Positions 17,918 to 52,491 of a stretch of 64,000 nucleotides of DNA are shown here, in pieces; position 1 is the first letter of the stretch, and every line of letters starts with the position of its first letter. This DNA comes from Flavobacteriales bacterium (GTDB taxonomy: Bacteria; Bacteroidota; Bacteroidia; UBA10329), in contig JAIOYP010000007.1 of NCBI GenBank assembly GCA_021741155.1, positions 1 through 64,000 on the forward strand, written 5' to 3'. Both the position numbers and the translations under genes were made by a program. Under the pieces are notes generated by a model. It was not told where the DNA came from, did not search any database, and worked only from the letters and a program-made list of their open reading frames with translations.

Positions 17918-20065
17918 TTACTCCTTTACGTTTTCCGGATTCACCTCGTTTCGAGCGTTCTGTAACTCCGTTTTGTAGAGCGCATCTGTGATGATTGCTT
18001 CGCCTTTGTAGTAGAACACATCGCCCCAACTGTGAGCAACCTTCTTGTAGGTGGTTTTTACATTATAGATGTCAGCCACGGAAGTGGTAATCACGTCTCC
18101 GCCTTTTTGATCCGTGGTAATTGTCAACGTATTCTCCTTGCGTTGTTCACGGACACGAGCAATTTCTGCCTGCTTGGAAGCTTCTTTTGCAGCGGCAATT
18201 GCATCAATTCGTGCTTTTTCTTGCCTTACTGCTTCTTCTTGCTCACGTAATCGTTCAACCCGTGCTTCTTCTTTTGCTATAGCGATGGAATCCACTCTTG
18301 CTTGTTCGGCAACTACTTCCAATCGCTTGACCTCGGCCACAGAATCTAAAGCCGCTTTCTTTTTAGCCTCTTCCGCCAAACGCGCTGCTTCATCTGCCAA
18401 TCGTTGTGCTTCTTTTACGGATGCAATTGAATCAGTTACCGCTTGTTTACGCTGTCTTTCCAGCTCTTTTGCAAGTTCAACGGCTACTCGTGCCGCTTCC
18501 TTGGCGGCATCAATAGAATCTTTCTCTGCTTGACGCTTGGCGGCATCCAACGCTGCAAGACGCTCTTGCTCGATACGTTCTGTTTCCTTAACAACTGCTA
18601 AAGAATCTGCTTCAGACTTCTTTCTAGCGTCTTCCAATTGTTTGGCGAGTTCCGCTGCTTTTCGCTCAGCTTCTTTTACCGCAGCCAACGAATCCGCTTC
18701 GGCTTGTTTCTTGGCATCTTCTAATTGCTTAGCAAGTTCTGCGGCTTTACGTTCCGCATCTTTTATCACAGCTAACGAATCTGCTTCGGCCTTCTTTCTA
18801 GCGTCTTCCAATTGTTTGGCTAGTTCTGCAGCTTTACGTTCAGCATCCTTCGTTAATGCCAGAGAATCTGCTGCTGCCTGTTTCTTTACAGCTTCCAACT
18901 GCTTGGCAAGTTCTGCAGCTTTGCGTTCGGCATCTTTCAATCCTGCCAATGAGTCTGCCTCAGCTTGCTTTCTAGCATCTTCCAATTTTTTGGCCGCTTC
19001 TGCCGCCAAACGCTCTGCTTCCTTAGCTGCAGCAGCTGAATCCTTTTCTGCAAGCTTTTTCAGTCGTTCGGCTTCCTTTTCTTGTTGAAGAGAGAGTTTA
19101 TCTGCATCACGCGCAGCGAGAATTGAATCCTGTTTAGCTTGTTCTGCCAATTCTCTGAGGCGTTTTGCTTCAGCGATGGAGTCTTTTTTGGCTTTTTCAG
19201 CTGCCGCTAGCGCATCAGCCGCTGATAGTTGTGCATTCTTAATAGAATCAGTTTTTGCCGCTTCCACTGCAGCTAATCTCTTTCGTTCGCGCTCAGCAGC
19301 TGCAAGATCATCCAACTTTTTGGCTTCACTGCTCAATTCTTGTTCGCGTTGCTGTGCGAGTTTGGCTTTCATTTTTGCCAAGTGGGCTTCCACAGCGGCA
19401 AGCGAGTCTATGCGTGATTTTTCCTTAGCAGCCTTCAACTCTTCCTGTCTCAACGCCCAATTGGCGATGGAATCGGATATGAAAAGTTCGCGTGCCCGAG
19501 CAATCGAATCCAATCTTGCATTTTCGCGAGCAACCACCAACGCCTTTTGACGAGCGGCTTCTCTGATTTTTGCAGCTTCAGCAGCTGCTGCCATTTCCTC
19601 TTCAATACGACTGATATCACGCGTTACAGTTACGAACGCACCTGCCCCTTCGTTGAACATTACTCCACCAGCAGTTTCTTCCCGAACAGGATTGCCTTTG
19701 TGATCCTGACGCATGCGCTGAAGATCTAACGTTACCGATTGAGCGTACTCTCCTTTAGCTCCTGATGGAACTTTTGTGACCACAGTGATGGTTTTTGTGG
19801 CATAGCCTTTTTCAGAAACGCTCACCACATACTCAGTATTAAGGTCAAGCGATGTCACGAACTTCCCAACATTATTGGCATAGGAATACTTCAATCCACC
19901 ATCAAGCCTAAAAATCTTGATTTCGGCTTCGCCCAACGGCTGTCCTTCCTTAGTCACATTACCATTAAGCACAAGTTTTCCTTCTTGCGAATGAGCCGCA
20001 AAACCGAACAGAACTAGAGATAATATGAGGATTTGTCTTACCAACGAACCGGAAGTGAGCGACAA
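17918..20065 (-). CDS. secreted coiled-coil protein with 29-residue repeats
   Basis: A 715-residue protein. The start is TTG at 20065 (or TTG at 20044); no ATG is available before the signal peptide (LVRQILILSLVLFGFAAHSQ). A CarboxypepD_reg-like domain (about 27-97) comes first. Then a very long Ala/Lys/Glu/Asp-rich coiled coil follows. Residues about 346-578 are eight 29-residue units of the form xAERKAAELAKQLEDARKQAEADSLAxVK (87 bp each), the inner ones nearly identical. A short globular tail (YNVKTTYKKVAHSWGDVFYYKGE) ends it. The N-terminal domain and coiled coil suggest an envelope structural protein. Similar DS(I/L)A-rich proteins are common in Bacteroidota, but no function is assigned. 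Confidence 0.85.
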   Translation of the reverse strand: MSLTSGSLVRQILILSLVLFGFAAHSQEGKLVLNGNVTKEGQPLGEAEIKIFRLDGGLKYSYANNVGKFVTSLDLNTEYVVSVSEKGYATKTITVVTKVPSGAKGEYAQSVTLDLQRMRQDHKGNPVREETAGGVMFNEGAGAFVTVTRDISRIEEEMAAAAEAAKIREAARQKALVVARENARLDSIARARELFISDSIANWALRQEELKAAKEKSRIDSLAAVEAHLAKMKAKLAQQREQELSSEAKKLDDLAAAERERKRLAAVEAAKTDSIKNAQLSAADALAAAEKAKKDSIAEAKRLRELAEQAKQDSILAARDADKLSLQQEKEAERLKKLAEKDSAAAAKEAERLAAEAAKKLEDARKQAEADSLAGLKDAERKAAELAKQLEAVKKQAAADSLALTKDAERKAAELAKQLEDARKKAEADSLAVIKDAERKAAELAKQLEDAKKQAEADSLAAVKEAERKAAELAKQLEDARKKSEADSLAVVKETERIEQERLAALDAAKRQAEKDSIDAAKEAARVAVELAKELERQRKQAVTDSIASVKEAQRLADEAARLAEEAKKKAALDSVAEVKRLEVVAEQARVDSIAIAKEEARVERLREQEEAVRQEKARIDAIAAAKEASKQAEIARVREQRKENTLTITTDQKGGDVITTSVADIYNVKTTYKKVAHSWGDVFYYKGEAIITDALYKTELQNARNEVNPENVKE

Positions 20066-27753: not shown

Positions 27754-27761
27754 TATCTTTG
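27754..27761 (+). promoter_or_regulatory. -7 element TATCTTTG of lysS
   Basis: An exact match to TAnnTTTG, 15 nt before the lysS ATG. It contains the TTG that would otherwise be taken as an upstream start, so it decides the start codon. Confidence 0.75.
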
Positions 27762-27776
27762 CGCAAAATTTTAGGC

Positions 27777-29489
27777 ATGCAAGAACTCAGCGAACAGGAA
27801 GTTGTCAGAAGAGAGGCGCTTCAGAAACTTATAGACCTTGGAATTGACCCGTATCCTGCGGCATTATTCCCAGTGAATATTCTGGCTAAGGATGTGAAGG
27901 AACAATTTACGGAAGGCAAGGAGATGAAGGATGTGGTTCTTGCTGGGCGAATGATGAGTTCTCGCGTGATGGGAAAAGCATCGTTTGCTGAGCTGCAAGA
28001 TGCAAGCGGACGAATTCAGATCTATATCGCCAGAGATGAGATTTGTCCGGGTGAGGATAAGACCTTGTACAACGAGGTTTTTAAAAAGCTGTTGGATCGT
28101 GGCGATTTTATCGGAATCAAAGGCTACGTTTTTAAAACGCAGGTGGGAGAAACGTCTATTCACGTTCAAGAATTGACCTTGCTTAGCAAATCGTTAAAGC
28201 CGCTACCGGTGGTAAAAACCGATGCAGAAGGTGTGGTGCATGATGCCGTGAGCGATGCGGAATTCCGTTACCGTCAGCGGTACGTGGACCTGGTTGTGAA
28301 CCCTGGAACAAAAGAGGTTTTTAAGAAGCGGACGAAGCTTTACAGCGTGTTCAGAGATTACTTCAACGAGCACGAAATTTTAGAGGTGGAAACCCCAATT
28401 CTACAGGCTATTCCTGGAGGAGCAGCTGCGCGCCCGTTTATGACGCATCATAATGCGTTGGATATTCCGCTTTACATGCGCGTTGCGAACGAATTGTACC
28501 TAAAACGTTTGATTGTTGGGGGTTTTGATGGGGTGTATGAGTTTGCCAAAGACTTCAGAAATGAAGGCATGGACCGCACGCACAATCCAGAGTTTACGGT
28601 GATGGAAATCTATGTGGCTTACAAGGATTACAACTGGATGATGGATTTTACCGAGAAGCTCTTGGAAAAAGCCTGCATCGCCCTAAACGGAACGACTGAA
28701 ATTGAATACGGACAGCACAAGGTGAGCTTCAAAGCGCCATTTCCGCGTGTGCCGATGTTGGATGCCATTAAGGAACATACAGGTGTAGATATTACCGGAA
28801 TGGGCGTTGATGAACTGCGCAAAGTTTGCAAGGACCTTGGCGTTCCTACGGAGGATAGCATGGGAAAAGGCAAGCTGATTGATGAGCTTTTTGGCGAGAA
28901 GTGCGAAGGCAATTACATCCAGCCAACTTTTATTACAGACTATCCGGTGGAGATGTCTCCCCTTACCAAAAAGCACCGAAGCAAGGAAGGTTTGGTAGAG
29001 CGTTTTGAGTTGATGATTTGCGGAAAGGAGATTGCCAACGCTTATTCTGAGCTGAACGACCCGCTAGAACAACGCGAGCGTTTTGAAGAGCAAATGCAAC
29101 TGGCCGATAATGGGGATGACGAGGCAATGATGATCGATCAAGACTTCCTACGTGCCTTAGAATACGGCATGCCGCCAACCTCAGGAATGGGAATTGGAAT
29201 GGACCGTTTGGCGATGATGCTTACCAATCAACATTCTATTCAAGATATTCTCTTCTTCCCACAAATGCGACCAGAAAAGAAGGCGGAGAAAAAGGTGGAA
29301 TTGAACGAAACGGAGAAGCTCATTTTCGGCATCCTATCCAAGAACTCACCAATGGATTTGAACGACCTAAAGGAACGTTCTGGCCTCAGCGGCAAGCAAT
29401 GGGATAAGGGAATTAAGGGCTTGGCATCTCACGGATTGACCAAGGTGACGAAGACGGATGCGGGTTTGATGGTGGAAGCAAACAACTAA
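27777..29489 (+). CDS. lysS: lysyl-tRNA synthetase, class II, with C-terminal extension
   Basis: A 570-residue enzyme charging tRNA-Lys. The N-terminal OB-fold (about 55-150), class II motif 2 (FRNEGMDRTHNPEFT) and motif 3 (GMGIGMDRLAM) are intact. Beyond motif 3 there is an extra ~60-residue C-terminal domain (LIFGILSKNSPMDLNDL ... SHGLTKVTKTDAGLMVEANN) that looks like a winged helix and is absent from the E. coli-type enzyme. The last ~100 bp of this gene (29397-29496) have diverged copies at four more places up to 35.8 kb. The MBOAT gene starts 14 nt after the stop. Confidence 0.97.
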   Translation: MQELSEQEVVRREALQKLIDLGIDPYPAALFPVNILAKDVKEQFTEGKEMKDVVLAGRMMSSRVMGKASFAELQDASGRIQIYIARDEICPGEDKTLYNEVFKKLLDRGDFIGIKGYVFKTQVGETSIHVQELTLLSKSLKPLPVVKTDAEGVVHDAVSDAEFRYRQRYVDLVVNPGTKEVFKKRTKLYSVFRDYFNEHEILEVETPILQAIPGGAAARPFMTHHNALDIPLYMRVANELYLKRLIVGGFDGVYEFAKDFRNEGMDRTHNPEFTVMEIYVAYKDYNWMMDFTEKLLEKACIALNGTTEIEYGQHKVSFKAPFPRVPMLDAIKEHTGVDITGMGVDELRKVCKDLGVPTEDSMGKGKLIDELFGEKCEGNYIQPTFITDYPVEMSPLTKKHRSKEGLVERFELMICGKEIANAYSELNDPLEQRERFEEQMQLADNGDDEAMMIDQDFLRALEYGMPPTSGMGIGMDRLAMMLTNQHSIQDILFFPQMRPEKKAEKKVELNETEKLIFGILSKNSPMDLNDLKERSGLSGKQWDKGIKGLASHGLTKVTKTDAGLMVEANN

Positions 29490-29503: not shown

Positions 29504-30913
29504 ATGCTATTCAATTCCATAGAGTTTGCGCTTTTTTTGCCCACTGTCCTGTTGTTGTACTGGGTAATTCCCAGTCGAAGTAACAATTTCAGAAATGTCC
29601 TTTTACTTGGCGCCAGCTATCTGTTTTACGGTTGGTGGGACTGGCGATTTCTTGGTCTTATTGCCTTCAGCTCTTTTGTTGATTTTATTATTGGACAACG
29701 ATTGAGTTTGACCAGCAACACAAGAAGTCGTAAGCTGTTTTTGACAATTAGTGTTGTGGTCAATCTGGGTCTTCTGGGTTTCTTCAAGTATTTCAATTTT
29801 TTCCTTGAGAGTTTAAAGGACGCATTCACCTTATTTGGTAAAGAGTTGAACTCTGAGCACCTAGCAATAGTGCTACCGGTCGGCATCAGCTTTTATACGT
29901 TCCAAACGCTCAGTTACACGATTGATGTGTACAAACGCAAAATTGTTGCGGAGAACGATATTATCAAATTTTTCACTTTCGTAAGTTTCTTTCCTCAACT
30001 TGTGGCAGGTCCGATCGAGCGAGCCTCGCACCTTTTGCCTCAGTTCCAAGCCGGGAAAACATTCTCATATCAGTTCATTTCCGAAGGATTTAAGCAAATT
30101 GTTTGGGGCTTCTTTTTGAAATTGGTAATTGCAGATAGGGCTGCCATTTATGTTGACTCTGTGTACAATAATGTATATCAACACGAGGGACTGACCTTCA
30201 TTTTCGCAACAGTATTATTTGCATTTCAAATTTACGGAGACTTTGCTGGATATTCGCTCATAGCAATTGGAACAGCTAAAATGTTCGGATTCGACCTAAT
30301 GACCAATTTCAGTCGTCCGTATCTCTCTTTTTCTGTAAAAGAATTCTGGACACGGTGGCATATTTCTCTTTCAACGTGGTTTAGAGACTACTTGTACATT
30401 CCATTAGGCGGGAATAGAGTTCCTCGGCCCAGAATGCTTCTGAATCTATTTGTAACATTCGTAATAAGCGGATTATGGCATGGTGCCAATTGGACCTTTG
30501 TAATTTGGGGAGCATTGAACGGAGCTTATCTGGTTTTAGAGATTTTGTTGGGTATTAAGGCCAGCCGAAACCCCTTTAGGATTCTTTTAACCTTCGGGTT
30601 AATTAATTTTTCATGGATATTCTTTAGGGCAGCAAATCTGCAAGAAGCAGGTCACATCGTCAGTACCATCTTCACTCATCCAGGAAGTCTCTTTTTTTCT
30701 TCCGAAAGCGATGTAACAGCGCCAATATACGCTATTCTTTCAATCGGCCTGCTCTTGTTGATTGAATTAAAAAGGGAGTTTTTGGGAAACCGTTTTTCAA
30801 TTACAAATCACCGCAATCAATGGGTGAGGATGGCGGCCTTTGCGTGCATCATCTTCCTCATTCTCTATCTGGGTGTTTTTGACAAAGGACAATTCATTTA
30901 CTTTCAGTTTTAA
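29504..30913 (+). CDS. MBOAT family O-acyltransferase (AlgI-like)
   Basis: A 469-residue polytopic membrane protein. Signature stretches are PSRSNNFRNVLLLGASYLFYGWWDWRFL near the start, LPVGISFYTFQTLSYTIDVY, FFPQLVAGPIERA, FWTRWHISLSTWFRDYLYIPLGG (about 282-304) and SGLWHGANWTFV with the catalytic His (about 328). AlgI/PatA proteins pass acyl groups across the membrane to a polysaccharide or peptidoglycan acceptor. The next gene encodes an SGNH-type partner, as in alginate acetylation systems. It starts 14 nt after lysS. Confidence 0.94.
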   Translation: MLFNSIEFALFLPTVLLLYWVIPSRSNNFRNVLLLGASYLFYGWWDWRFLGLIAFSSFVDFIIGQRLSLTSNTRSRKLFLTISVVVNLGLLGFFKYFNFFLESLKDAFTLFGKELNSEHLAIVLPVGISFYTFQTLSYTIDVYKRKIVAENDIIKFFTFVSFFPQLVAGPIERASHLLPQFQAGKTFSYQFISEGFKQIVWGFFLKLVIADRAAIYVDSVYNNVYQHEGLTFIFATVLFAFQIYGDFAGYSLIAIGTAKMFGFDLMTNFSRPYLSFSVKEFWTRWHISLSTWFRDYLYIPLGGNRVPRPRMLLNLFVTFVISGLWHGANWTFVIWGALNGAYLVLEILLGIKASRNPFRILLTFGLINFSWIFFRAANLQEAGHIVSTIFTHPGSLFFSSESDVTAPIYAILSIGLLLLIELKREFLGNRFSITNHRNQWVRMAAFACIIFLILYLGVFDKGQFIYFQF

Positions 30914-30916
30914 CCA

Positions 30917-31882
30917 ATGAAAAATTCAGAATTGAACTTGCTTGGGCTGAATGCTTTGAAGTTTATTGCTGTGTTATTGGTGGTAGACTTCGGTTTGGGA
31001 ACCATTGCAGAAAGGCTCTACTTTTCTCAAACAACTGGCAAGCAAGCAAGAATCATCGCTTCCTTAAATTTCAACGACTCTGAACTGTTAGTCTTGGGCA
31101 GCTCGCATGCAAATCGTCATTACGTGCCCGAGGTTTTTGAGAACCTCCTTGGTTTTAAAAGCTATAACGCTGGTGTTCAGGGACAAAGACTTCTTTTTAC
31201 CTCCACCTTGCAAAAGATGATATTGGATCGGTCTAAACCAAAAATTATCATCGTAAATATTGACAATAATTGGATGCAAGAGTCTCAAGAAGCATACGAT
31301 AGACTTTCAGATTTTCATCCTTTTTATTGGGAGTACCGCAAAATACTGTTACCGGTGCTAAATCTTAAGTCCACTTTTGTTGACCTGCGAATGAGCAGTA
31401 AAGCCTATAGAATGAACTCAACACTGGTTCACATGGCATTTTATTTTGTGAAACCTCAAGAAGCGCACAACGGATATCTTCCATCGTACAAAAAAATGGC
31501 TCTATCTACAGAGGTAGACAGTGATGGGCTGTCTTCTAATACTGAAAAGCCTGCTATAGACACCAATTTTGTGACTGCTTTCGATGAAATTATTGAAACT
31601 TCTTCTTTTAACGAAGTGAAATTGGTTTTTGTGGTTTCCCCAACATTCCATGTGCCTGACAAAACCGAGTCTGAATCGATGCAAATAATGGTGGATCGAA
31701 TTAAGGAAAAGAACCTTCCTTTTTACGACTTCAGAGGCGATTCTGCGTTTATGGGCAAGCCAAACCTGTTTTTTGACCCAGCCCACCTAAACCACGAAGG
31801 TGCTGTCCTGTTTAGTGGGTTGGTTGCCGCTGAATTAGAACATCTTGGCCTTTCTGCGAAAGCTCAAGCAGGCGCAGAATAA
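30917..31882 (+). CDS. SGNH/AlgX-like partner of the MBOAT acyltransferase
   Basis: A 321-residue protein with an N-terminal anchor helix (about 12-30). It contains VLGSSHANRHYVPE (about 57-70), with the Ser of an SGNH block, and FFDPAHLNHEGAVLF (about 284-298) with an Asp-x-x-His pair. Such proteins act outside the membrane as the acetyl-transfer partner of MBOAT proteins. It follows the MBOAT gene by 3 nt. Its stop codon falls in a stretch (31877-31925) that matches the 3' end of the hydrolase gene at 36.9 kb, so the extreme C-terminus may have been reshaped by recombination. Confidence 0.85.
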   Translation: MKNSELNLLGLNALKFIAVLLVVDFGLGTIAERLYFSQTTGKQARIIASLNFNDSELLVLGSSHANRHYVPEVFENLLGFKSYNAGVQGQRLLFTSTLQKMILDRSKPKIIIVNIDNNWMQESQEAYDRLSDFHPFYWEYRKILLPVLNLKSTFVDLRMSSKAYRMNSTLVHMAFYFVKPQEAHNGYLPSYKKMALSTEVDSDGLSSNTEKPAIDTNFVTAFDEIIETSSFNEVKLVFVVSPTFHVPDKTESESMQIMVDRIKEKNLPFYDFRGDSAFMGKPNLFFDPAHLNHEGAVLFSGLVAAELEHLGLSAKAQAGAE

Positions 31883-31925
31883 ACCCATTCGGCTCATCCA
31901 TAAAAACCTGTTGGTCGTTTCACAA
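31877..31925. pseudogene. 3'-end fragment of the lipoprotein hydrolase gene
   Basis: These 49 nt align without gaps to 36908-36956, inside the 3' end of the hydrolase gene at 36888-37919, with about nine mismatches and in the same orientation. Read on the minus strand the fragment gives NDQQVFMDEPNGFI against DDQEVFMEGVIGFI in the intact gene. The homology stops abruptly on the right. Confidence 0.7.
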
Positions 31926-31928
31926 TTA

Positions 31929-32003
31929 GACAAAGGCATTACTCACGAATCGGCCAAGGAGACGAAGACGGATGCTGGGTTGACGGTGGAGGCGGTAGGC
32001 TGA
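31929..32003 (+). repeat. lysS 3'-end copy B1
   Basis: Reads in frame as DKGITHESAKETKTDAGLTVEAVG-stop, against DKGIKGLASHGLTKVTKTDAGLMVEANN in lysS: an in-frame internal shortening with a preserved stop. The bases after the stop (TTGGTATT) resemble those after copy C (AGGTATT). Confidence 0.75.
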
Positions 32004-32009
32004 TTGGTA

Positions 32010-32047
32010 TTATACAAATCACCCAATCGATTCCCTGATTTGTATAA
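32010..32047. promoter_or_regulatory. orphan copy of the DUF4143 operator
   Basis: TTATACAAAT-N18-ATTTGTATAA, the same arms and the same 18-nt spacing as the operator in front of the intact DUF4143 gene at 34447-34488. Here it is followed only by a gene remnant. Confidence 0.8.
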
Positions 32048-32070
32048 AACAAGGAATACTCCACAGAAAC

Positions 32071-32246
32071 CGGCTTTGAAGTGCTGAACTGGAAGACGTT
32101 TCTTACGCGGTAAACCAATAGGATAAGGGCATCAAGAACTAGTCTCTCACGGATTGACCAAAGTGACCAAGACAGATGCTGGGTTGATGGTGGAGACGGT
32201 TTAATAGTAACTCAACCACTGCTCGGCTATCTAATTTCCAACCTTG
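32071..32246. repeat. 176-bp direct repeat, left copy (DUF4143 3' end + lysS tail B2 + lipoprotein 3' end)
   Basis: Matches 35614-35789 with a constant offset of 3543 bp, no gaps and only about three mismatches. It contains the last 43 nt of the DUF4143 gene (including its TAA), lysS-tail copy B2 (32116-32217) and 20 nt of the 3' end of the lipoprotein gene. The rest of the DUF4143 gene is missing, so this is a deletion relic. From 32247 to 32435 there is only AT-rich spacer with the next promoter. Confidence 0.9.
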
Positions 32247-32370
32247 ACGGATATATCATATCTGATTCGTTTTTTGGAAGCTCGTCAAACCAAAAACCTC
32301 ATTCATCCAGTTAAATAGCCTTTTTTGGCTAATTTCCTGTTGACCAAGATGCGCGAATGTGACACATTGA

Positions 32371-32378
32371 TATATTTG
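32371..32378 (+). promoter_or_regulatory. -7 element TATATTTG of the SpoIIE-type gene
   Basis: Exact TAnnTTTG match, 57 nt before the ATG; no clear -33 at the ideal distance. Confidence 0.5.
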
Positions 32379-32435
32379 CATTGCTGTGCAGGTTTGTAAG
32401 CGTTTCTCTTTTTTACTTCTACCATCCAAACCATC

Positions 32436-34331
32436 ATGTCAAAGAAACCCTTACTCCCTAAGTCTAAAGCAGGAAGAATCCTGCTTCTCATTTACGCCCT
32501 ACTGGGTTTGGTATTGGCTACCATGATTACAATTACGTTGGTTTGGTCGGCTAGTGTGATAACGAAATACGAGAACAATTCAGATACCATAGACAAGAGC
32601 TTCCTGACTATTGGTGAGCTCAAAAAAAGCATTTCGCATCGCGAAGTTGCCCTCTTACGACACCTCTGTGCAACCGATAGCCTATCGAAGATTGCAGAAG
32701 AAAACATAATAAATGCAGAACGTGCGGAGAACACAAAACGGCTCGATTATCTCCGATCATTACTCTCCGATTCTTTGGGCTACGCCCTTTATGACACGTT
32801 AGAAATGTATCGTGCAGAAAACATGTTGGCACGCGAAAAGCTACTTGCAATTAGCTGGGCACATGATGCCGAAAAAGCCATCCATTATCATAATGAAATT
32901 CAGCAAAAGACATATGAAAACCTGCAAAATTCCGTTTCATCATTGTCTGATCATATAGTGCGGGACAGAAAAGCAAAAGCCACTGCATTACAGTCTAATG
33001 CCTTTGCGCTTAGCTATACGGTTGTTGCGCTGGCTCTTGTAGTTATAGCGTTGTTAATTGCGTTGGGGTTTGCCATCAAATTCACAAACATGCACGCAGA
33101 CCGCATGGTTCATCGCAGTGATCTTTACCGCAAGGCCATCAATCAATCTATGATTGTAACGGTAACCGATTCTAAAGGAAGAATTACGGATTCTAACGAA
33201 CAGATGCTCAAACTCATGGGTTATTCGAAAGAGGAAGTCGTTGGCAAAAACCCAAGGATGTTTAAATCAGGTCATCATGACAAAGAATTCTACAAAAACC
33301 TTTGGACTACGGTTTTGGCGGGAAATGTTTGGAAGGGAGAAATGCTTAACCGCGTAAAAAACGGTGGCATTGTTTGGTTAGACACTACCATTATTCCGTT
33401 TAGGGATGAGATGGGTAAGATTGAAGAGATGTTTGTGCTTAGACAAGACATCTCGGCCAGAAAAATGGCTGAGGATGAGCTCATTCTTACAAACCGCGAC
33501 TTGGAAAAACGGGTGGAAGAACGCACAGCAGACCTTTTGATAACCAGTCAGAAATTGGATGCTATTCATCAAGACCTTGTTTCGAGCGTGAACTACGCCA
33601 AGCGTATTCAAGATGCCGTGTTAGATTCGTCTTTAGAAGTTACGGAGGTGTTCCCCAATTCTTTTGTGTTCGCTAAGAGCCATTCGGTATTAAGCGGAGA
33701 TTTTGTGTGGTGCGCAACGATTGGAGATTTGCAGATTATTGCAGCGGTAGATTGCACGGGGCATGGCATACCAGGGGCGTTGATGTCTGTGTTGGGAAAG
33801 GAGATTTTAGACCTCGTTATTTTAGAATCAGAACTAGCTAGTGCTGGAGAGATGCTTTTGGAGATGGACGAACAACTCATCAACCGGCTACAAATAAAAT
33901 CTAGAGACCTTATCATTAACGATGGTATGGACGTGGCGCTATGCATCGTAGATCAAAAAAATGGCACCTTCCAGTATGCTGGCGCTTATCGGCCTTTAAT
34001 TACGGTAGACAATGCGGGCATCTCTACCTACTACAAAGGATCTTCGTTTTCAATCGGTGGCGGTTCATCTAGACACGATAAAACATTCGAAACCATCACC
34101 ATTCCTATTACCCCAGACCTGATGTTCTACATTGGTTCAGATGGTTTTCAGGATCAATTTGGCGGGACTGAGGATAAAAAATTCGGAAAAGCACGGCTCA
34201 CCGCACTCTTATCGTCCATCTCTTCACTCCCAATAAAGCAACAACAGGCAGGGGCTAAAGAAGCGTTTATCAATTGGCAGGGCAAAGCAACCCAAACCGA
34301 TGATGTGTTGCTGGTTGGTATAAGGCTTTAG
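32436..34331 (+). CDS. membrane sensor with PAS and SpoIIE-type PP2C phosphatase domains
   Basis: A 631-residue protein. Helix 1 (about 12-35) and helix 2 (about 188-213) bracket a ~150-residue extracytoplasmic helical sensor region. A PAS domain with its PAC segment follows (about 224-340, TDSNEQMLKLMGYSKEEVVGKNPRMFK), then a coiled coil (DLEKRVEERTADL), then a SpoIIE/PP2C-like domain (about 400-630, SGDFVWCATIGDLQIIAAVDCTGHGIPGALMS, with metal-binding Asp residues). Such proteins dephosphorylate anti-sigma-factor antagonists or act in two-component-like circuits. No anti-sigma gene is adjacent. It lies between lysS-tail copies B2 and C. Confidence 0.92.
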   Translation: MSKKPLLPKSKAGRILLLIYALLGLVLATMITITLVWSASVITKYENNSDTIDKSFLTIGELKKSISHREVALLRHLCATDSLSKIAEENIINAERAENTKRLDYLRSLLSDSLGYALYDTLEMYRAENMLAREKLLAISWAHDAEKAIHYHNEIQQKTYENLQNSVSSLSDHIVRDRKAKATALQSNAFALSYTVVALALVVIALLIALGFAIKFTNMHADRMVHRSDLYRKAINQSMIVTVTDSKGRITDSNEQMLKLMGYSKEEVVGKNPRMFKSGHHDKEFYKNLWTTVLAGNVWKGEMLNRVKNGGIVWLDTTIIPFRDEMGKIEEMFVLRQDISARKMAEDELILTNRDLEKRVEERTADLLITSQKLDAIHQDLVSSVNYAKRIQDAVLDSSLEVTEVFPNSFVFAKSHSVLSGDFVWCATIGDLQIIAAVDCTGHGIPGALMSVLGKEILDLVILESELASAGEMLLEMDEQLINRLQIKSRDLIINDGMDVALCIVDQKNGTFQYAGAYRPLITVDNAGISTYYKGSSFSIGGGSSRHDKTFETITIPITPDLMFYIGSDGFQDQFGGTEDKKFGKARLTALLSSISSLPIKQQQAGAKEAFINWQGKATQTDDVLLVGIRL

Positions 34332-34349
34332 TTTACGCGGTCAGTACCC

Positions 34350-34396
34350 AGATGACGAAGACGGATGCGGGGTTGTCGGTTAAAACAGTGGGCTGA
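34350..34396 (+). repeat. lysS 3'-end copy C
   Basis: Reads MTKTDAGLSVKTVG-stop against VTKTDAGLMVEANN in lysS, 18 nt after the SpoIIE-type stop. It is preceded by TTTACGCGGT, which resembles the end of the DUF4143 gene (TCTTACGCGGT). Confidence 0.65.
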
Positions 34397-34446
34397 TAGG
34401 TATTCCCTCCTCGCATCTGGTTCAGATTATTTCGAATTTCAGCTAG

Positions 34447-34488
34447 TTTTATACAAATCATACACTCAACCGCTATATTTGTATAAAA
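34447..34488 (+). promoter_or_regulatory. operator/promoter of the second DUF4143 gene
   Basis: Inverted repeat TTTTATACAAAT (34447-34458) and ATTTGTATAAAA (34477-34488), 18 nt apart. The right arm overlaps the -7 element TATATTTG (34474-34481), 18 nt before the ATG, as expected for a repressor site. Confidence 0.75.
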
Positions 34489-34498
34489 TTTAGTTGGC

Positions 34499-35656
34499 AT
34501 GAACCACATAGCACGGGAAATAAGAACGGTTCTTCTTGACTACGCGCAACAGTTTCGGGCAGTTATGGTAGTCGGCCCAAGGCAGTCTGGAAAGACCACG
34601 CTGGTCAAGATTACATTCCCTAAAAAACCGTACGTCTCGTTAGAAAATCCCGATGAACGTGCGCTAGCAAATGAAGATCCACGGGCGTTTCTGGCACGAT
34701 TCCCCAAAGGGGCTATTCTTGATGAGGTTCAACGTGTTCCAAGCCTATTGAACTATTTGCAAGAGATTCTGGACCATAGCAAAGAGGATGGATTGTACAT
34801 TATTACTGGCAGCAACAATATTCTGCTTCAGGATAACGTGAGCCAAACCTTGGCAGGGCGTGTGGGCGTGCTTGATCTGATGCCGCTCAGTTACCGCGAA
34901 ATAGTACAGCAAAAGAGCAATCTTACTTTGGAAGAACACATTTTCAACGGCAGCTACCCAGAGATTTATGATCGAAACCGAAGCCCAAGCATCTGGTATC
35001 CCTCCTACATCCGAACGTATGTGGAGCGCGATGTTCGTCAGGTGCAGAACATTGAGAATACCGCGCTGTTCACCAAGTTTCTTCGCCTTTGTGCGGGTCG
35101 GGTCGGTCAGCAAGTAAATATGTCTGCTCTAAGCAACGAATGCGGTATTGATGTGAGAACTGTGCAGTCTTGGCTCTCTGTATTGGAAAGTACCTACGTG
35201 ATAAAACGACTGTCTCCGTTCCATCGCAACTTTAATAAGCGAATTACCAAGTCGCCAAAACTCTATTTTATTGATTCTGGACTGGTCTGCTCACTGCTTG
35301 GAATAAGAACAACCGATGAGCTCACGGTCTCCCACTTTAAGGGTGCGTTGGTTGAGAATTTCATCATCATGGAATTGGTGAAGAATGGTTTGAATAAAGG
35401 ATTGCACCAATCGCTTTATTATTGGCGAGAGAACAACGGTGTGGAGGTGGATGTGATTCTTGATTCGGGTACAACCTTCGTCCCTATCGAAATAAAATCG
35501 GCACAGACCTTTTCGAAGGATTTCCTCACTAACCTCAAAAAGTTTAAATCCTATTCCGATGTTCTGAAAGGAACTCTGCTTTATGATGGCGAAATGGAAT
35601 TCAAAACAGAAGACGGCTTCGAAGTGCTGAACTGGAAGACGTTTCTTACGCGGTAA
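34499..35656 (+). CDS. ATP-binding protein with DUF4143 (second copy)
   Basis: A 385-residue AAA_14/DUF4143 protein, related to but clearly diverged from the one at 13.3 kb. Walker A is GPRQSGKTT (26-34), Walker B is GAILDEVQRV, and a winged-helix-like segment (NMSALSNECGIDVRTVQSWLSVLEST) follows. The C-terminus has YYWRENNGVEVDVILD...VPIEIKS, with the E-x-D...E-x-K pattern of PD-(D/E)xK nucleases. The gene is bracketed by lysS-tail copies C and D and preceded by its own palindromic operator. A gutted copy lies at 32.0-32.2 kb. Confidence 0.92.
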   Translation: MNHIAREIRTVLLDYAQQFRAVMVVGPRQSGKTTLVKITFPKKPYVSLENPDERALANEDPRAFLARFPKGAILDEVQRVPSLLNYLQEILDHSKEDGLYIITGSNNILLQDNVSQTLAGRVGVLDLMPLSYREIVQQKSNLTLEEHIFNGSYPEIYDRNRSPSIWYPSYIRTYVERDVRQVQNIENTALFTKFLRLCAGRVGQQVNMSALSNECGIDVRTVQSWLSVLESTYVIKRLSPFHRNFNKRITKSPKLYFIDSGLVCSLLGIRTTDELTVSHFKGALVENFIIMELVKNGLNKGLHQSLYYWRENNGVEVDVILDSGTTFVPIEIKSAQTFSKDFLTNLKKFKSYSDVLKGTLLYDGEMEFKTEDGFEVLNWKTFLTR

Positions 35657-35789
35657 ACCAATAGGATAAGGGCATCAAGAACTAGTCTCTCACGGATTGA
35701 CCAAAGTGACCAAGACAGATGCTGGGTTGATGGTGGAGAAAGTTTAATAGTAACTCAACCACTGCTCGGCTATCTAATTTCCAACCTTG
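35614..35789. repeat. 176-bp direct repeat, right copy (contains lysS tail D)
   Basis: Partner of 32071-32246. It spans the last 43 nt of the intact DUF4143 gene, lysS-tail copy D (35659-35760, reading LTKVTKTDAGLMVEKV-stop in frame) and the final 20 nt of the convergent lipoprotein gene. Confidence 0.9.
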
Positions 35790-36678
35790 CCACCACTCGC
35801 TCCCAATACCTTGGGGCATAGACGAACACATCGTCAGAGGTGTAGGAAAGACCATCACTACCAGCATACACCTGTATCAGATTATCGGGGGTAAAACTAA
35901 TGGTTGAGAACATTTCAATGGTTTCTCCTCCGTTTGGCATGGTCACAATGATGGGTGAATAGCGGTGGCTTCGGATGAATGGACGATTGCAAATCGGCCC
36001 GGCAAAAGGGCACCCTGAAACATCAGGAAGCCCCTGTGGGTTATGGATGTAGGTCGAATCCGTTCCACCAAACACAATTCCTGATGGCCTCAGGTTCTCT
36101 GGATACAACATGTCTAAGAGACGAATCTCGTTGCACTTTAGCAAGAGCCTGTTTGTTCCTGCATCGTATGTCACGGCATCGCTCGCCAGATTCTGTAAGA
36201 ACACGTTCTGGTATCCTATGGGCAATTCCACTTCCTGATAGTAATAGTATGGCATGAACATGAAGTAGTTCATGGTCACTTCATCCTGCTCGTAAACACC
36301 ATCTCGCAGGTCGTTGCCGTATAAGATGGGCTCGGCCGTTACCTCCTGATTGTTCGAAAAATCGACATCCAGATAAATCTGGTAATTAGGGTCGTTGTCG
36401 TGTCCATCGATGTAGGAGATCATGTGCGTGGACGAATTGGACCCCGCACTCTCGAGGTTGTCCTGATAGGCCAAAATGTTGAGTTTGGATTTGAACATGT
36501 AGGGTGTGAGGGTGGTGACTAAGGGTCCGAACTGGGTGTAGACCGAATCCTCAGAGGTTTTGCCCGAACCTTCGTCAATGGTCGCATTGGTGAATTTGAG
36601 ACGGTGCTGGATAATCCCCGATTTCTTGCAAGAGCTGAGCCCTAAAAGAATAAATAGAAAAATGCCGAAGTATTTCAT
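35770..36678 (-). CDS. lipoprotein, unknown function
   Basis: A 302-residue protein. The start at 36678 gives a lipoprotein signal (MKYFGIFLFILLGLSSCKKS, lipobox LSSC). The body is Tyr/Asn/Asp-rich with predicted beta strands (YIDGHDNDPNYQIYLDVDFSN, FMPYYYYQEVELPIGYQN) and no motif I recognise. It is likely periplasmic or surface-exposed. Its last 20 nt are within the right copy of the 176-bp repeat and are duplicated at 32227-32246. Confidence 0.75.
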   Translation of the reverse strand: MKYFGIFLFILLGLSSCKKSGIIQHRLKFTNATIDEGSGKTSEDSVYTQFGPLVTTLTPYMFKSKLNILAYQDNLESAGSNSSTHMISYIDGHDNDPNYQIYLDVDFSNNQEVTAEPILYGNDLRDGVYEQDEVTMNYFMFMPYYYYQEVELPIGYQNVFLQNLASDAVTYDAGTNRLLLKCNEIRLLDMLYPENLRPSGIVFGGTDSTYIHNPQGLPDVSGCPFAGPICNRPFIRSHRYSPIIVTMPNGGETIEMFSTISFTPDNLIQVYAGSDGLSYTSDDVFVYAPRYWERVVARLEIR

Positions 36679-36887
36679 GGGTAAGGTTAGTTGACAAAAC
36701 AAACTTCAACATACTCATCTTCAACATCACTGAGCTTGATCAGAGAAAAAGCTGTTCCTTACCAAGCGAATCTTGTACGCGTCACTCCCTGTTTATAATG
36801 ATCTATTGAATGTCGCCACTCAATTAGAGTGGCAAACGGTTCGAAAAGAGTTGGGTCAGCGGTGACTGAGACGCAAGCATTGCGTCT
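36679..36887. repeat. intergenic region with GAGACGCAA palindrome
   Basis: Mostly featureless. A perfect hairpin GAGACGCAA-GCA-TTGCGTCTC (36868-36888) ends at the hydrolase stop. The GAGACGCAA...TTGCGTCTC type recurs between genes in Bacteroidota genomes. No T-run follows, so a REP-like element is more likely than a terminator. Confidence 0.6.
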
Positions 36888-37919
36888 CTACCGTTCAAAC
36901 GTTCGATGAATAAACCCAATCACCCCTTCCATAAAAACCTCTTGGTCGTCCCACAAGGCCATGTGGCTGCCGTTGGGGCAATGCAATGATTCTCCATTCT
37001 GAACGAGGGTAGCCATCTCCTTCATTTCATCCGGATTCATGCTATCGTATTTCGCACCTACCATGAGGGTTGGTGTGGCAATTTCGTGTAGTCTATCCCA
37101 CACGCTCCAATCCTTTAGAATACCACCTGGCACAAACTCGCTTGGCCCTTGCATGTAGCTGTAAACGGGCCCGTTAAAGTGGCTAAAGCTTCGTGCCACT
37201 GGTTCTGGGAAAGGGTAAATTTTGCAGATGTGTTTGGCGTAGAATTCCTTCTCCACCAACTCCAAATAAATCGGATTTCCGTAGTCTTCGGCATCTTCAT
37301 ACATCTTTAGCGTGTCCACCAAACTTGGCCGTAATTGCTCTCTCAATTTGTTGTTGTAAGCCGCGTATTTATGAAAATCGGCTGTCATGTTGCAGATGAT
37401 TAAGCCTTTCAAATTCTGCTGATACTTGAGCGCGTATTCCAGCGCTAGAATGCCTCCCCAGCTTTGTCCGAGAAGCACGAAATTGTCCTTATTCAACCCC
37501 AAAGCAACACGCACTTGCTCCACCTCTTCTACAAAACGCTCAATGGTGTAAAGGCTCATGTCTTCGGGCTGATCGGAGTAATACGAACCCAACTGATCGT
37601 ACTCATAAAACTCAATATTCGCCTGCGGAAAAAAGCTCTGGAAGCTCTCTAAATACTCGTGCGTTCCTGCTGGACCGCCATGCAGTATCAGCACCTTCAT
37701 AGGGCTGTTTCCGTAGCGCTTTGTCCAAACCTTGTAGCCTTCTACAAGGTCAATCATTTGCACGCCTCCGGCTTGATAAGTGCCAGGGGTTTTGAAATTG
37801 TTGTAGTCGCAGTTTGTGACTGGTTCCGCTGTTTCGACCGGTGCTTGCGAGCATCCGAAAAACGTGAAAAGGAGAAAAAGAAAAACGGTTGGCCGTAGGA
37901 TGGCAGAAGTGTAATGCAT
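36888..37919 (-). CDS. lipoprotein alpha/beta hydrolase, proline-iminopeptidase family
   Basis: A 343-residue protein with a lipoprotein signal (FLLFTFFGCSQAPVE; Cys about 23). The hydrolase fold shows ILHGGPAGTHEYL (the HGGPG-type motif of this family), YDQLGSYYSDQP, the nucleophile GQSWGGILALEYA, an Asp in VGAKYDSMNP and a His in CPNGSHMALWDD. Prolyl iminopeptidases remove N-terminal proline. A lipid-anchored form would act in the periplasm or at the surface. A diverged 49-nt fragment of its 3' end lies at 31877-31925. Confidence 0.9.
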   Translation of the reverse strand: MHYTSAILRPTVFLFLLFTFFGCSQAPVETAEPVTNCDYNNFKTPGTYQAGGVQMIDLVEGYKVWTKRYGNSPMKVLILHGGPAGTHEYLESFQSFFPQANIEFYEYDQLGSYYSDQPEDMSLYTIERFVEEVEQVRVALGLNKDNFVLLGQSWGGILALEYALKYQQNLKGLIICNMTADFHKYAAYNNKLREQLRPSLVDTLKMYEDAEDYGNPIYLELVEKEFYAKHICKIYPFPEPVARSFSHFNGPVYSYMQGPSEFVPGGILKDWSVWDRLHEIATPTLMVGAKYDSMNPDEMKEMATLVQNGESLHCPNGSHMALWDDQEVFMEGVIGFIHRTFER

Positions 37920-38393: not shown

Positions 38394-39503
38394 TCACTTT
38401 TCTCCCCTTTTGGGAGATGCCGAAGGCAGAGGGGCTTTTTTGCAGACCATCAATGAATGATAGTACCCAACCGTTTCCACGATTTTCTCTACTTCCAAAC
38501 CAGCTTCCTCCACGTATTGTGCCATGCGCTTGCTGTCGTACATCTTGCTGTTTCCGTTAGCCATTGAAGTAAAGTACAGCGATGTGCCGTGCAAGCAATA
38601 AGCGGCAGTCATGCTTTCCTGTAAATCCCAAAAAGTTTCGAGGATGAAAACTCGTCCATCATCGTTCAACGCATCTTTTGCATGACTCAGAATGTGCTTG
38701 ATTTGTTCGGGCGAGAAGCAATCCAAAAACTGGCTCATCCAAACCGCATCTTGGTTTTTTGGGAGTTGATAATCCGCATCCAACACGTTTTGTTCGTGGG
38801 TGGAGATTCGCTCTTGCAAACCAACAGACCGAATGAGCTCATTGGCCAGCCCGCATTGACCGGGAAGGTCAACAATTGTCATGTGCACATCGGAATCATT
38901 TTGCACGCACTGAAAAGACCATTTGCCTGTGTTTCCACCAATATCCAACATAGATTTTGGTTTGAAATGGAACACCTCTTTCCTAGCCTGAGGAAAAGCC
39001 TGATCGGAATAATGATGGTCAAACGTGAACCAGCTTTCTTTAGATCGACCAGGAAGTTTGGATAGTCCGTGATAAATGGTCGGCCAATCGCCCAATTCTT
39101 TCAAACCTGCTGGTTTTTCTTCTTTGATGGCTTCTTCAAGGTGAAAAGTGCCCTGATAGCACACGTCCTGAACGAAATCGGTGTTTGCAACCGTCTGTTT
39201 GTCCATCAACCAAAACGAACCTGTCTTGCCAATCTTGTACGTGTACGGCTCCATCAGTTTGACCAAATCCAAACTCAATCCCGCTTCTAAAAGCGTTTCC
39301 ACACCATATTCAGAAATACCAGTTTCCTTACTCAATTCTTCCGATGTAGCACCTTTTCTTCCTGCATTTGCTAAGGCTTGCAGAATGCCTGTTCTGTTAA
39401 GCGAAACTGCCGCCTGAAACATCATGGGATAGAATGAAAGTCGCTCTGCCGCCTCTTTTGCTTCGGTTAATGAAATGTTGTCTTCTTGAAATGCTTTATA
39501 CAT
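38394..39503 (-). CDS. SAM-dependent O-methyltransferase-like protein
   Basis: A 369-residue class I methyltransferase of the small-molecule O-methyltransferase type. The start at 39503 is chosen as the ATG nearest the conserved N-terminal helices. A winged-helix dimerisation region (about 45-85, KGATSEELSKETGISEYGVETLLE) precedes the SAM site MLDIGGNTGKWSF (about 185) and VDLPGQ. It is not a DNA methylase. The last ~12 residues (PLPSASPKRGEK) are encoded by a dispersed GC-rich repeat (38397-38434), which seems to have replaced the original end of the gene. Confidence 0.85.
   Translation of the reverse strand: MYKAFQEDNISLTEAKEAAERLSFYPMMFQAAVSLNRTGILQALANAGRKGATSEELSKETGISEYGVETLLEAGLSLDLVKLMEPYTYKIGKTGSFWLMDKQTVANTDFVQDVCYQGTFHLEEAIKEEKPAGLKELGDWPTIYHGLSKLPGRSKESWFTFDHHYSDQAFPQARKEVFHFKPKSMLDIGGNTGKWSFQCVQNDSDVHMTIVDLPGQCGLANELIRSVGLQERISTHEQNVLDADYQLPKNQDAVWMSQFLDCFSPEQIKHILSHAKDALNDDGRVFILETFWDLQESMTAAYCLHGTSLYFTSMANGNSKMYDSKRMAQYVEEAGLEVEKIVETVGYYHSLMVCKKAPLPSASPKRGEK
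38397..38434. repeat. dispersed GC-rich repeat forming the C-terminus of the methyltransferase
   Basis: CTTTTCTCCCCTTTTGGGAG followed by ATGCCGAAGGCAGAGGGGC, a sequence type found between genes in many Bacteroidota. Here it is read through as coding sequence. Confidence 0.6.
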
Positions 39504-39517
39504 GTTTTTAACTAATA

Positions 39518-39550
39518 AGACCTTCAAGGTTTTGAAAACCTTGAAGGTCT
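39518..39550. repeat. 33-nt palindrome (family copy 1)
   Basis: AGACCTTCAAGGTTTT-G-AAAACCTTGAAGGTCT, 16-bp perfect arms around one base, between two co-directional genes. Relatives at 48432 and 52459 have the same length and centre. Confidence 0.85.
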
Positions 39551-48431: not shown

Positions 48432-48464
48432 AGACCTAACAGGTTTTGAAAACCTGTTAGGTCT
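48432..48464. repeat. 33-nt palindrome (family copy 2)
   Basis: AGACCTAACAGGTTTT-G-AAAACCTGTTAGGTCT, perfect arms of 16 bp, between the DUF2723 gene and the deacetylase gene. Confidence 0.85.
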
Positions 48465-52458: not shown

Positions 52459-52491
52459 AAACCTAACAGGTTTTAAAAACCTGTTAGGTTT
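52459..52491. repeat. 33-nt palindrome (family copy 3)
   Basis: AAACCTAACAGGTTTT-A-AAAACCTGTTAGGTTT, perfect arms of 16 bp, in the gap between the polyprenyl synthase and hypothetical genes. Confidence 0.85.

Follow-up and report, generated by a model that had tools for sequence, protein, structure and literature searches.

Repeated one-sided entry of DNA from related bacteria as the probable origin of a 176-bp repeat and stacked gene-tail relics behind lysS in a Flavobacteriales genome

We analyzed a 64,000-nucleotide stretch of DNA (the window) from a Flavobacteriales bacterium (GenBank assembly GCA_021741155.1, contig JAIOYP010000007.1, positions 1 to 64,000), in which a 176-bp near-identical direct repeat flanks a SpoIIE phosphatase gene and an AAA_14-DUF4143 gene. 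The repeat is probably a recombination scar, and the 3' end of the adjacent lysS gene (lysine--tRNA ligase) a repeated landing place for DNA from related bacteria. In the interval between lysS and a convergent lipoprotein-like gene, the 3' tail of lysS recurs as four dead copies (t1 to t4) and that of a hydrolase gene as one. From left to right, the region holds lysS, an MBOAT gene and its partner, the hydrolase relic, t1, a palindrome, a DUF4143 remnant, t2 and a lipoprotein gene end, followed by the SpoIIE gene, t3, another palindrome, the DUF4143 gene, t4, the lipoprotein gene and the hydrolase gene (Table 1). No integrase or transposase was found among the genes of the window inserts and the other insert genes scanned.

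The relics were recognized by comparison with the live lysS tail (t0, the last ~100 bp, which falls in a C-terminal extension past the family core). Alignment scores to this tail were 36, 53, 26 and 53 for t1, t2, t3 and t4, respectively, compared with a best score of 12 to 14 among ~890 random window pieces for each. The relic tails extend to the stop codon or close to it and have lost their 5' side at differing points, with the lysS relics starting ~50 to 100 bp before the stop. The far joints are abrupt and fall at varied points; GCGG occurs near the t2/t4 joint, and t1 and the hydrolase relic end overlap by CAA (31923-31925). Since a remnant of a DUF4143 C-terminus directly follows the palindrome at 32007-32050, the left part of the region appears to hold a second DUF4143 gene that lacks its body.

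The repeat itself is the top non-self match in a self-comparison of the window. As the preliminary description stated, its copies match without gaps at a constant offset of 3543 bp and with about three differences, which lie at 32077, 32197 and 32198. BLAST lengthens the match to 184 bp at 97.3% identity (32063-32246 / 35606-35789, E 2.5e-84), and stretching it to 194 bp gives 9 mismatches, 7 of them within the first 25 bp. The copies differ left of 32078 (7/25 bases) because they carry the C-termini of different DUF4143 alleles. On the right, the match stops at 32246/35789, 20 bp into the lipoprotein gene; in copy 1 the lipoprotein end breaks off there and is followed by unrelated DNA. The unit runs, as described earlier, from a DUF4143 3' end through a copy of the lysS 3' tail to the last 20 bp of the lipoprotein gene. 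These had been called the ends of three unrelated genes, which is correct for the three ends but not for lysS and the lipoprotein gene, ancestral neighbors in two congeners (G003 and G007).

The repeat had also been attributed to a recent duplication. A recent origin agrees with the 119 identical consecutive bases at 32078-32196, which are mostly non-coding relic DNA, whereas a simple duplication does not agree with the unlike flanks and differing alleles. To the left of the repeat, both sites are homologous (a dead lysS tail plus a palindrome of the DUF4143 type) but match at no more than 79% and 74% (families D2 and D5). The flank divergence, the different DUF4143 alleles and the abrupt right break therefore point to a recombination tract between two related loci, rather than a segment copied in place; a tandem duplication is rejected on the 21-26% divergence of the homologous flanks. 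Judged by identity, the 97% repeat would be the least decayed of the scars. Gene conversion of the tract may have taken place, and the intervening 3.5 kb could in principle be lost by RecA recombination between the copies, both as proposed earlier. No further dispersed copies of the repeat were found elsewhere in the genome, a draft of 69 contigs.

The arrangement without the inserts is preserved in related genomes. Among eight other genomes of the genus, the lysS 3' neighborhood was readable in six: lysS lies directly against the lipoprotein gene in G003 and G007 and directly against the hydrolase gene in G001 and G005, while in G004 and G008 other, unrelated genes stand between lysS and the hydrolase gene. 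The contact seen in G003 and G007 therefore identifies the lysS-tail/lipoprotein part of the repeat as an ancestral junction. The inserted genes have no orthologue at the lysS site in the eight congeners, where the interval gave only tail matches, and they weakly match paralogues elsewhere in the congener genomes. G008 holds a dead hydrolase tail of its own (84% over 45 bp), and the process is therefore not private to the source genome.

To distinguish a foreign allele from a copied target, we compared live and relic tails by codon position. Had the target been copied at insertion, the two tails would start identical, and later differences would be spread evenly over the codon positions. Live and relic tails differ at 44/29/136 of 562/562/563 sites at codon positions 1/2/3; four further pairs add 17/14/37, for a total of 61/43/173. 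The first total left out the second relic of G016 and lysS t2, a near copy of t4. The excess is clearest in the long relics (G227, 7/3/22; G208, 10/7/61; L196, 4/1/10; C48, 3/1/16). Most of the divergence therefore arose while both tails were working gene ends in different lineages.

The same signature was found behind another gene, in another genus. Among the 33 homologues first examined, locus L088 (genome G016) lies behind asnS (NCBIfam asnS), with a dead asnS tail beyond it. We searched 45 genomes of its genus and read 13 asnS neighborhoods, picked partly for extra tail matches. Eight of the 13 contain dead asnS tails (G227, G200, G203, G211, G208, G016, G231 and G228); no asnS relic was seen in G158, G187, G128 and G218, and the contig of G235 ends too soon. 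The cargo varies: G200 carries a type I restriction-modification locus, G203 a PIN-domain gene, and G016 and G228 DUF4143 genes. Comparing asnS between G203 (L251) and G227 (L249), which represent two species, revealed 72-100% identity per 60-bp window in the 5' half (mostly 85-98%). From ~884 to 1483 the two genes are identical, and they remain nearly so to the stop codon (the last ~690 bp). Beyond it they are unrelated, and the inserts there differ. Such a shared 3' tract is what recombination anchored in the 3' half of the host gene predicts, although delivery of either insert in a single event does not follow from it. Continuity with a homologous donor allele on one side is visible at asnS and in the third-position excess between live and relic tails; at lysS it is presumed. 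Phylogenetic placement of relic versus live asnS tails was mostly uninformative for the short relics, and the G228 row was discarded owing to a mapping fault.

Elsewhere in the source genome, we scanned 417,295 bases with 338 open reading frames of at least 100 amino acids, on contigs picked for holding DUF4143 genes, for non-coding copies of gene 3' ends on the same strand and within 15 kb. Relics were found of lysS, the hydrolase and DUF4143 on C25 and of one gene each on C33, C48, C56 and C9. On C48, a 165-bp relic of a helicase gene tail lies past an insert with a DUF4143 gene and a gene for a PKD-domain protein; this helicase gene and its convergent neighbor are directly adjacent in G004 and G002. 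The insert on C56 contains a gene for an AAA_14 protein that matches DUF4143 only below the threshold. The DUF4143 gene on C21 is flanked by a 39-bp direct repeat whose two copies are identical, and the repeated sequence occurs once in G004; this repeat is not a gene tail, because the neighbors are divergent genes. Overall, four of the eight DUF4143-type genes of the genome lie in repeat-bracketed inserts, one of the four being below the Pfam cut-off. The DUF4143 genes on C33, C9 and at C25:13379 have palindromes only, and the gene-tail scan found no relic around the second C48 DUF4143 gene. A Fisher test for bracketed genes, 3/7 versus 9/331, used post hoc hand counts and is not relied on, since a recount of the other bracketed genes of at least 100 amino acids gave 7, not 9.

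We infer the donors, the joining step and the order of events as follows. Incoming DNA would bring a different allele of a host gene at either flank (lysS to the left, the lipoprotein or hydrolase gene to the right), pair with the resident gene and recombine there. Its far end, which lacks homology, would be attached by non-homologous joining within the 3' tail of the recipient's copy of that gene. A working gene end would come from the donor and so keep the host gene intact, and the old end would be left beyond the insert as a non-coding relic. Stacked from right to left, the layers would be t4 preceded by DUF4143, t3 preceded by SpoIIE, the second DUF4143 locus with t1 and t2, and the MBOAT pair with the hydrolase relic. 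In this order of events, t4 would be the original lysS end and DUF4143 would have arrived with the lysS of t3. SpoIIE and the second DUF4143 locus would have come afterwards, and the MBOAT pair later, in front of the relic hydrolase end. The tail t3 may be a deletion derivative of a DUF4143 end/lysS tail junction. The 97% repeat would be the most recent joint, formed through homology shared by two DUF4143-bearing loci: a locus of the form lysS tail - DUF4143 allele - lysS tail - lipoprotein would have recombined with a related, SpoIIE-carrying one, after which the DUF4143 end/lysS tail/lipoprotein junction common to both was present twice.

Several observations weigh against this account. The third-position excess is absent from t1 (1/4/3), t3 (5/1/2), G228 (2/1/1), C56 (7/9/12) and C33b (0/2/1), relics that are short or decayed. 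The compared pairs are not independent (t1, t3 and t4 share one live tail, and G016 and G228 represent one insertion), and a chi-square on codon positions is therefore only descriptive. On C48, ~500 bp without a match in G004 separate the relic from the native neighbor. Finally, several asnS relics begin at 1339-1344, as a site-specific recombinase would also give; other asnS relics start at 987, 1094, 1367 and 1373.

Table 1. Features between lysS and the hydrolase gene, in window coordinates
Feature	Position	Strand	Evidence or remark
lysS (lysine--tRNA ligase), live host gene	27759..29489	+	NCBIfam lysS_bact 598 bits, residues 10-507 of 576
MBOAT acyltransferase gene, inserted; not here in congeners	29504..30913	+	Pfam MBOAT
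Inserted gene next to MBOAT gene	30917..31882	+	No Pfam match
Dead 3' end copy of the hydrolase gene at 36888-37919	31864..31925	-	77% over 62 bp to 36895-36956; 84% over 49 bp
Dead lysS tail t1	31923..31996	+	41/44 identical to G008 lysS tail, 44/52 to own lysS
Palindrome of the DUF4143-upstream kind, no gene behind	32007..32050	.	Likeness to 34446-34488
C-terminus remnant of second DUF4143 allele	32053..32112	+	
Repeat copy 1	32071..32246	+	3/176 mismatches to 35614-35789
Dead lysS tail t2, within repeat copy 1	32113..32203	+	83% over 83 bp to lysS
Dead lysS/lipoprotein junction, last 20 bp of lipoprotein gene, ending at non-homologous joint	32204..32246	-	
PAS-SpoIIE phosphatase gene, inserted	32436..34331	+	Pfam PAS_9, SpoIIE; best congener match 41% identical
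Dead lysS tail t3	34346..34392	+	34/42 to lysS; score 26, maximum of 886 random pieces 12
Palindrome upstream of intact DUF4143 gene, likely operator	34446..34488	.	
AAA_14-DUF4143 gene, PADLOC candidate defense PDC-S01	34499..35656	+	Pfam; PADLOC PDC-S01 349 bits
Repeat copy 2	35614..35789	+	
Dead lysS tail t4, ancestral lysS end, adjoining lipoprotein gene	35656..35746	+	
Lipoprotein-like gene, ancestral convergent neighbor of lysS	35770..36702	-	As in G003, G007; no Pfam or NCBIfam match
Proline iminopeptidase-family hydrolase, second convergent neighbor; source type of relic at 31864	36888..37919	-	NCBIfam TIGR01250 323 bits

Other repeated sequences were observed in the window. The sequence TTACGCGGT at 34333-34341, directly after the SpoIIE stop codon, recurs at the end of the DUF4143 gene. 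Tandem repeats at 18574-19051 are spaced by ~87 bp and multiples thereof (69-77% alike), and 33-bp near-perfect palindromes occur at 39518-39550, 48432-48464 and 52459-52491, the last two being alike. The stretch at 38398-38441 recurs at other sites in G004 and G008 (87-97% alike) and is probably a dispersed repeat or a terminator hairpin.

The AAA_14-DUF4143 protein of the window matches the PADLOC model PDLC04790 (PDC-S01; 349 bits, E 8e-105). PDC-S01, an ATPase fused to a PD-(D/E)XK member, is reported as the fourth most common defense across prokaryotes, in a source that describes validation of most such candidate defenses as pending (PMC12988326). A comparison with solved structures gave as sole matches Walker-A matches to RecA. 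Our literature search, with most subscription journals outside its scope, returned one paper with "DUF4143" and none with "PF13635". This gene could itself be a selfish, self-moving element that duplicates a long target, as proposed for restriction-modification genes; we consider this unlikely. Such an element would account for the C21 repeat with its single copy in G004 and for the four repeat-bracketed genes of this genome.

We examined this explanation across 110 of 113 DUF4143 loci (three with short contigs were left out), 96 of which had 1 kb on both sides (14 did not). A flanking direct repeat of at least 37 bits was found at 17/96 loci, compared with 5/126 shifted placements (Fisher p 0.001), as a self-moving gene would predict. 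However, only four of the 17 repeats clearly duplicate the upstream gene end: L196, L186 and L140, where the 3' end of the upstream gene is repeated as far as the stop codon, and L088, the asnS case. Five are the palindrome itself (L077, L079, L145, L156 and L191), that of L205 is a promoter hairpin, and in the remaining seven a gene end is not clearly recognizable. Among the shifted controls, the two strongest stood beside DUF4143 genes, upstream at L138 and downstream at L167 (207 bp at 89% and 131 bp at 92%); these matches may be further relics. The paired tails, moreover, usually differ like alleles and not like a fresh copy, and the window inserts hold cargo besides DUF4143. DUF4143 as the sole cause was set aside, as the same scars also close inserts with restriction-modification, PIN or other genes and no DUF4143.

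The palindrome lies upstream of the DUF4143 start at 59/106 loci from many phyla, compared with 8/106 downstream and 3/99 control stretches, and its median center is ~37 bp before the start codon. Palindromes on both sides of the gene, found in five loci, would suit a self-moving element as well. The palindrome is likely an autoregulatory operator or an element end; a literature lookup, by family name only, did not find it in print. PDC-S01 might itself be a mobile nuclease gene whose product binds the palindrome next to the start codon, favors insertion of palindrome and gene together at host gene ends, thereby gives rise to the tail-bracketed inserts, and aids the entry of other cargo, a proposal that we regard as rather doubtful.

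Insertion by a trans-acting tyrosine or serine recombinase at an attachment site near the end of lysS or asnS (their 3' ends), with the relics as attR, is very unlikely. It would restore the host gene and leave the displaced tail beyond the insert, as observed, and would suit the asnS relics that begin at 1339-1344, but the inserts scanned hold no recombinase gene, the relic starts vary (987-1373 in asnS, and likewise in lysS), and the hydrolase and lipoprotein tails were also left as relics, from the other side. A purely local origin, in which a segmental duplication was reshaped by deletions and gene conversion with no foreign DNA involved, is highly improbable. The repeat copies are near-identical and close by, but their homologous flanking parts differ by the 21-26% noted above, t1 is nearer to the lysS of G008 than to its own, the inserted genes have no orthologue at the site in the eight congeners, and live and relic tails show the third-position excess. 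An assembly artefact, conceivable in a draft of 69 contigs, can be almost wholly discounted, as the repeat is short, its copies are not identical and each is bordered on both sides by unique DNA of its own, and the same architecture occurs independently in other genomes.

Relic gene tails bear on how small sets of accessory and defense genes enter chromosomes with no integrase: they offer a direct, countable scar of one-sided recombination, by which events can be ordered and cargo that arrived together recognized. The codon-position test can tell a working allele of foreign origin from a copy of the target, and it is applicable to any genome. Through the link to PDC-S01, the spread of a very common candidate defense becomes accessible to study, and the conserved palindrome of PDC-S01 lends itself to a simple binding experiment.

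The mechanism proposed here, one-sided recombination at host gene ends, is known in kind. In homology-facilitated illegitimate recombination (HFIR), DNA is described as entering by homology on one side, with the far end joined non-homologously (PMC3240628). In insertion with long target duplication (Nobusato et al. 2000, as described in PMC1643837 and PMC3031569), accessory genes, often for restriction-modification, are reported between long, variable direct repeats of the target. Here too accessory genes are flanked by long, variable target repeats, and a target repeat on both sides with a single copy where the insert is missing was found at C21 (G004) and at the lysS/lipoprotein junction (G003 and G007). 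However, our repeats are mostly at gene ends and mostly diverged like alleles, which argues against target copying: copies of identical origin would fit the 39-bp repeat of C21, whereas most tails have diverged at third positions. DUF4143 or PDC-S01 is not named as cargo in the accessible parts of these sources (PMC1643837, PMC3031569). The features of an integrase island, a recombinase gene and a fixed attachment core, are absent from the scanned inserts, with their varying relic starts. Transfer hotspots share with our loci variable content between core genes, mostly with no integrase, and their flanking core genes are reported to recombine more; the model given for them is a double crossover that leaves no relic, while the one-sided events proposed here would leave a readable scar (PMC5635113). 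The closest published natural case is the type VI secretion system (T6SS) arrays of V. cholerae, in which new effector modules push back older 3' ends and HFIR has been invoked (PMC5361080). There, one end is described as anchored by homology and the other as non-homologous, and successive events keep the older 3' ends; the insertions occur at an effector gene and leave immunity genes or the 3' ends of effectors as remnants (PMC5361080). In contrast, the insertions here lie behind a housekeeping gene whose own dead tails make up the remnants, they carry unrelated cargo, and the two convergent neighbors have left relics as well. Compared with these systems, the layered record of gene tails, the codon-position evidence for foreign alleles and the link to PDC-S01 appear to be the new parts.

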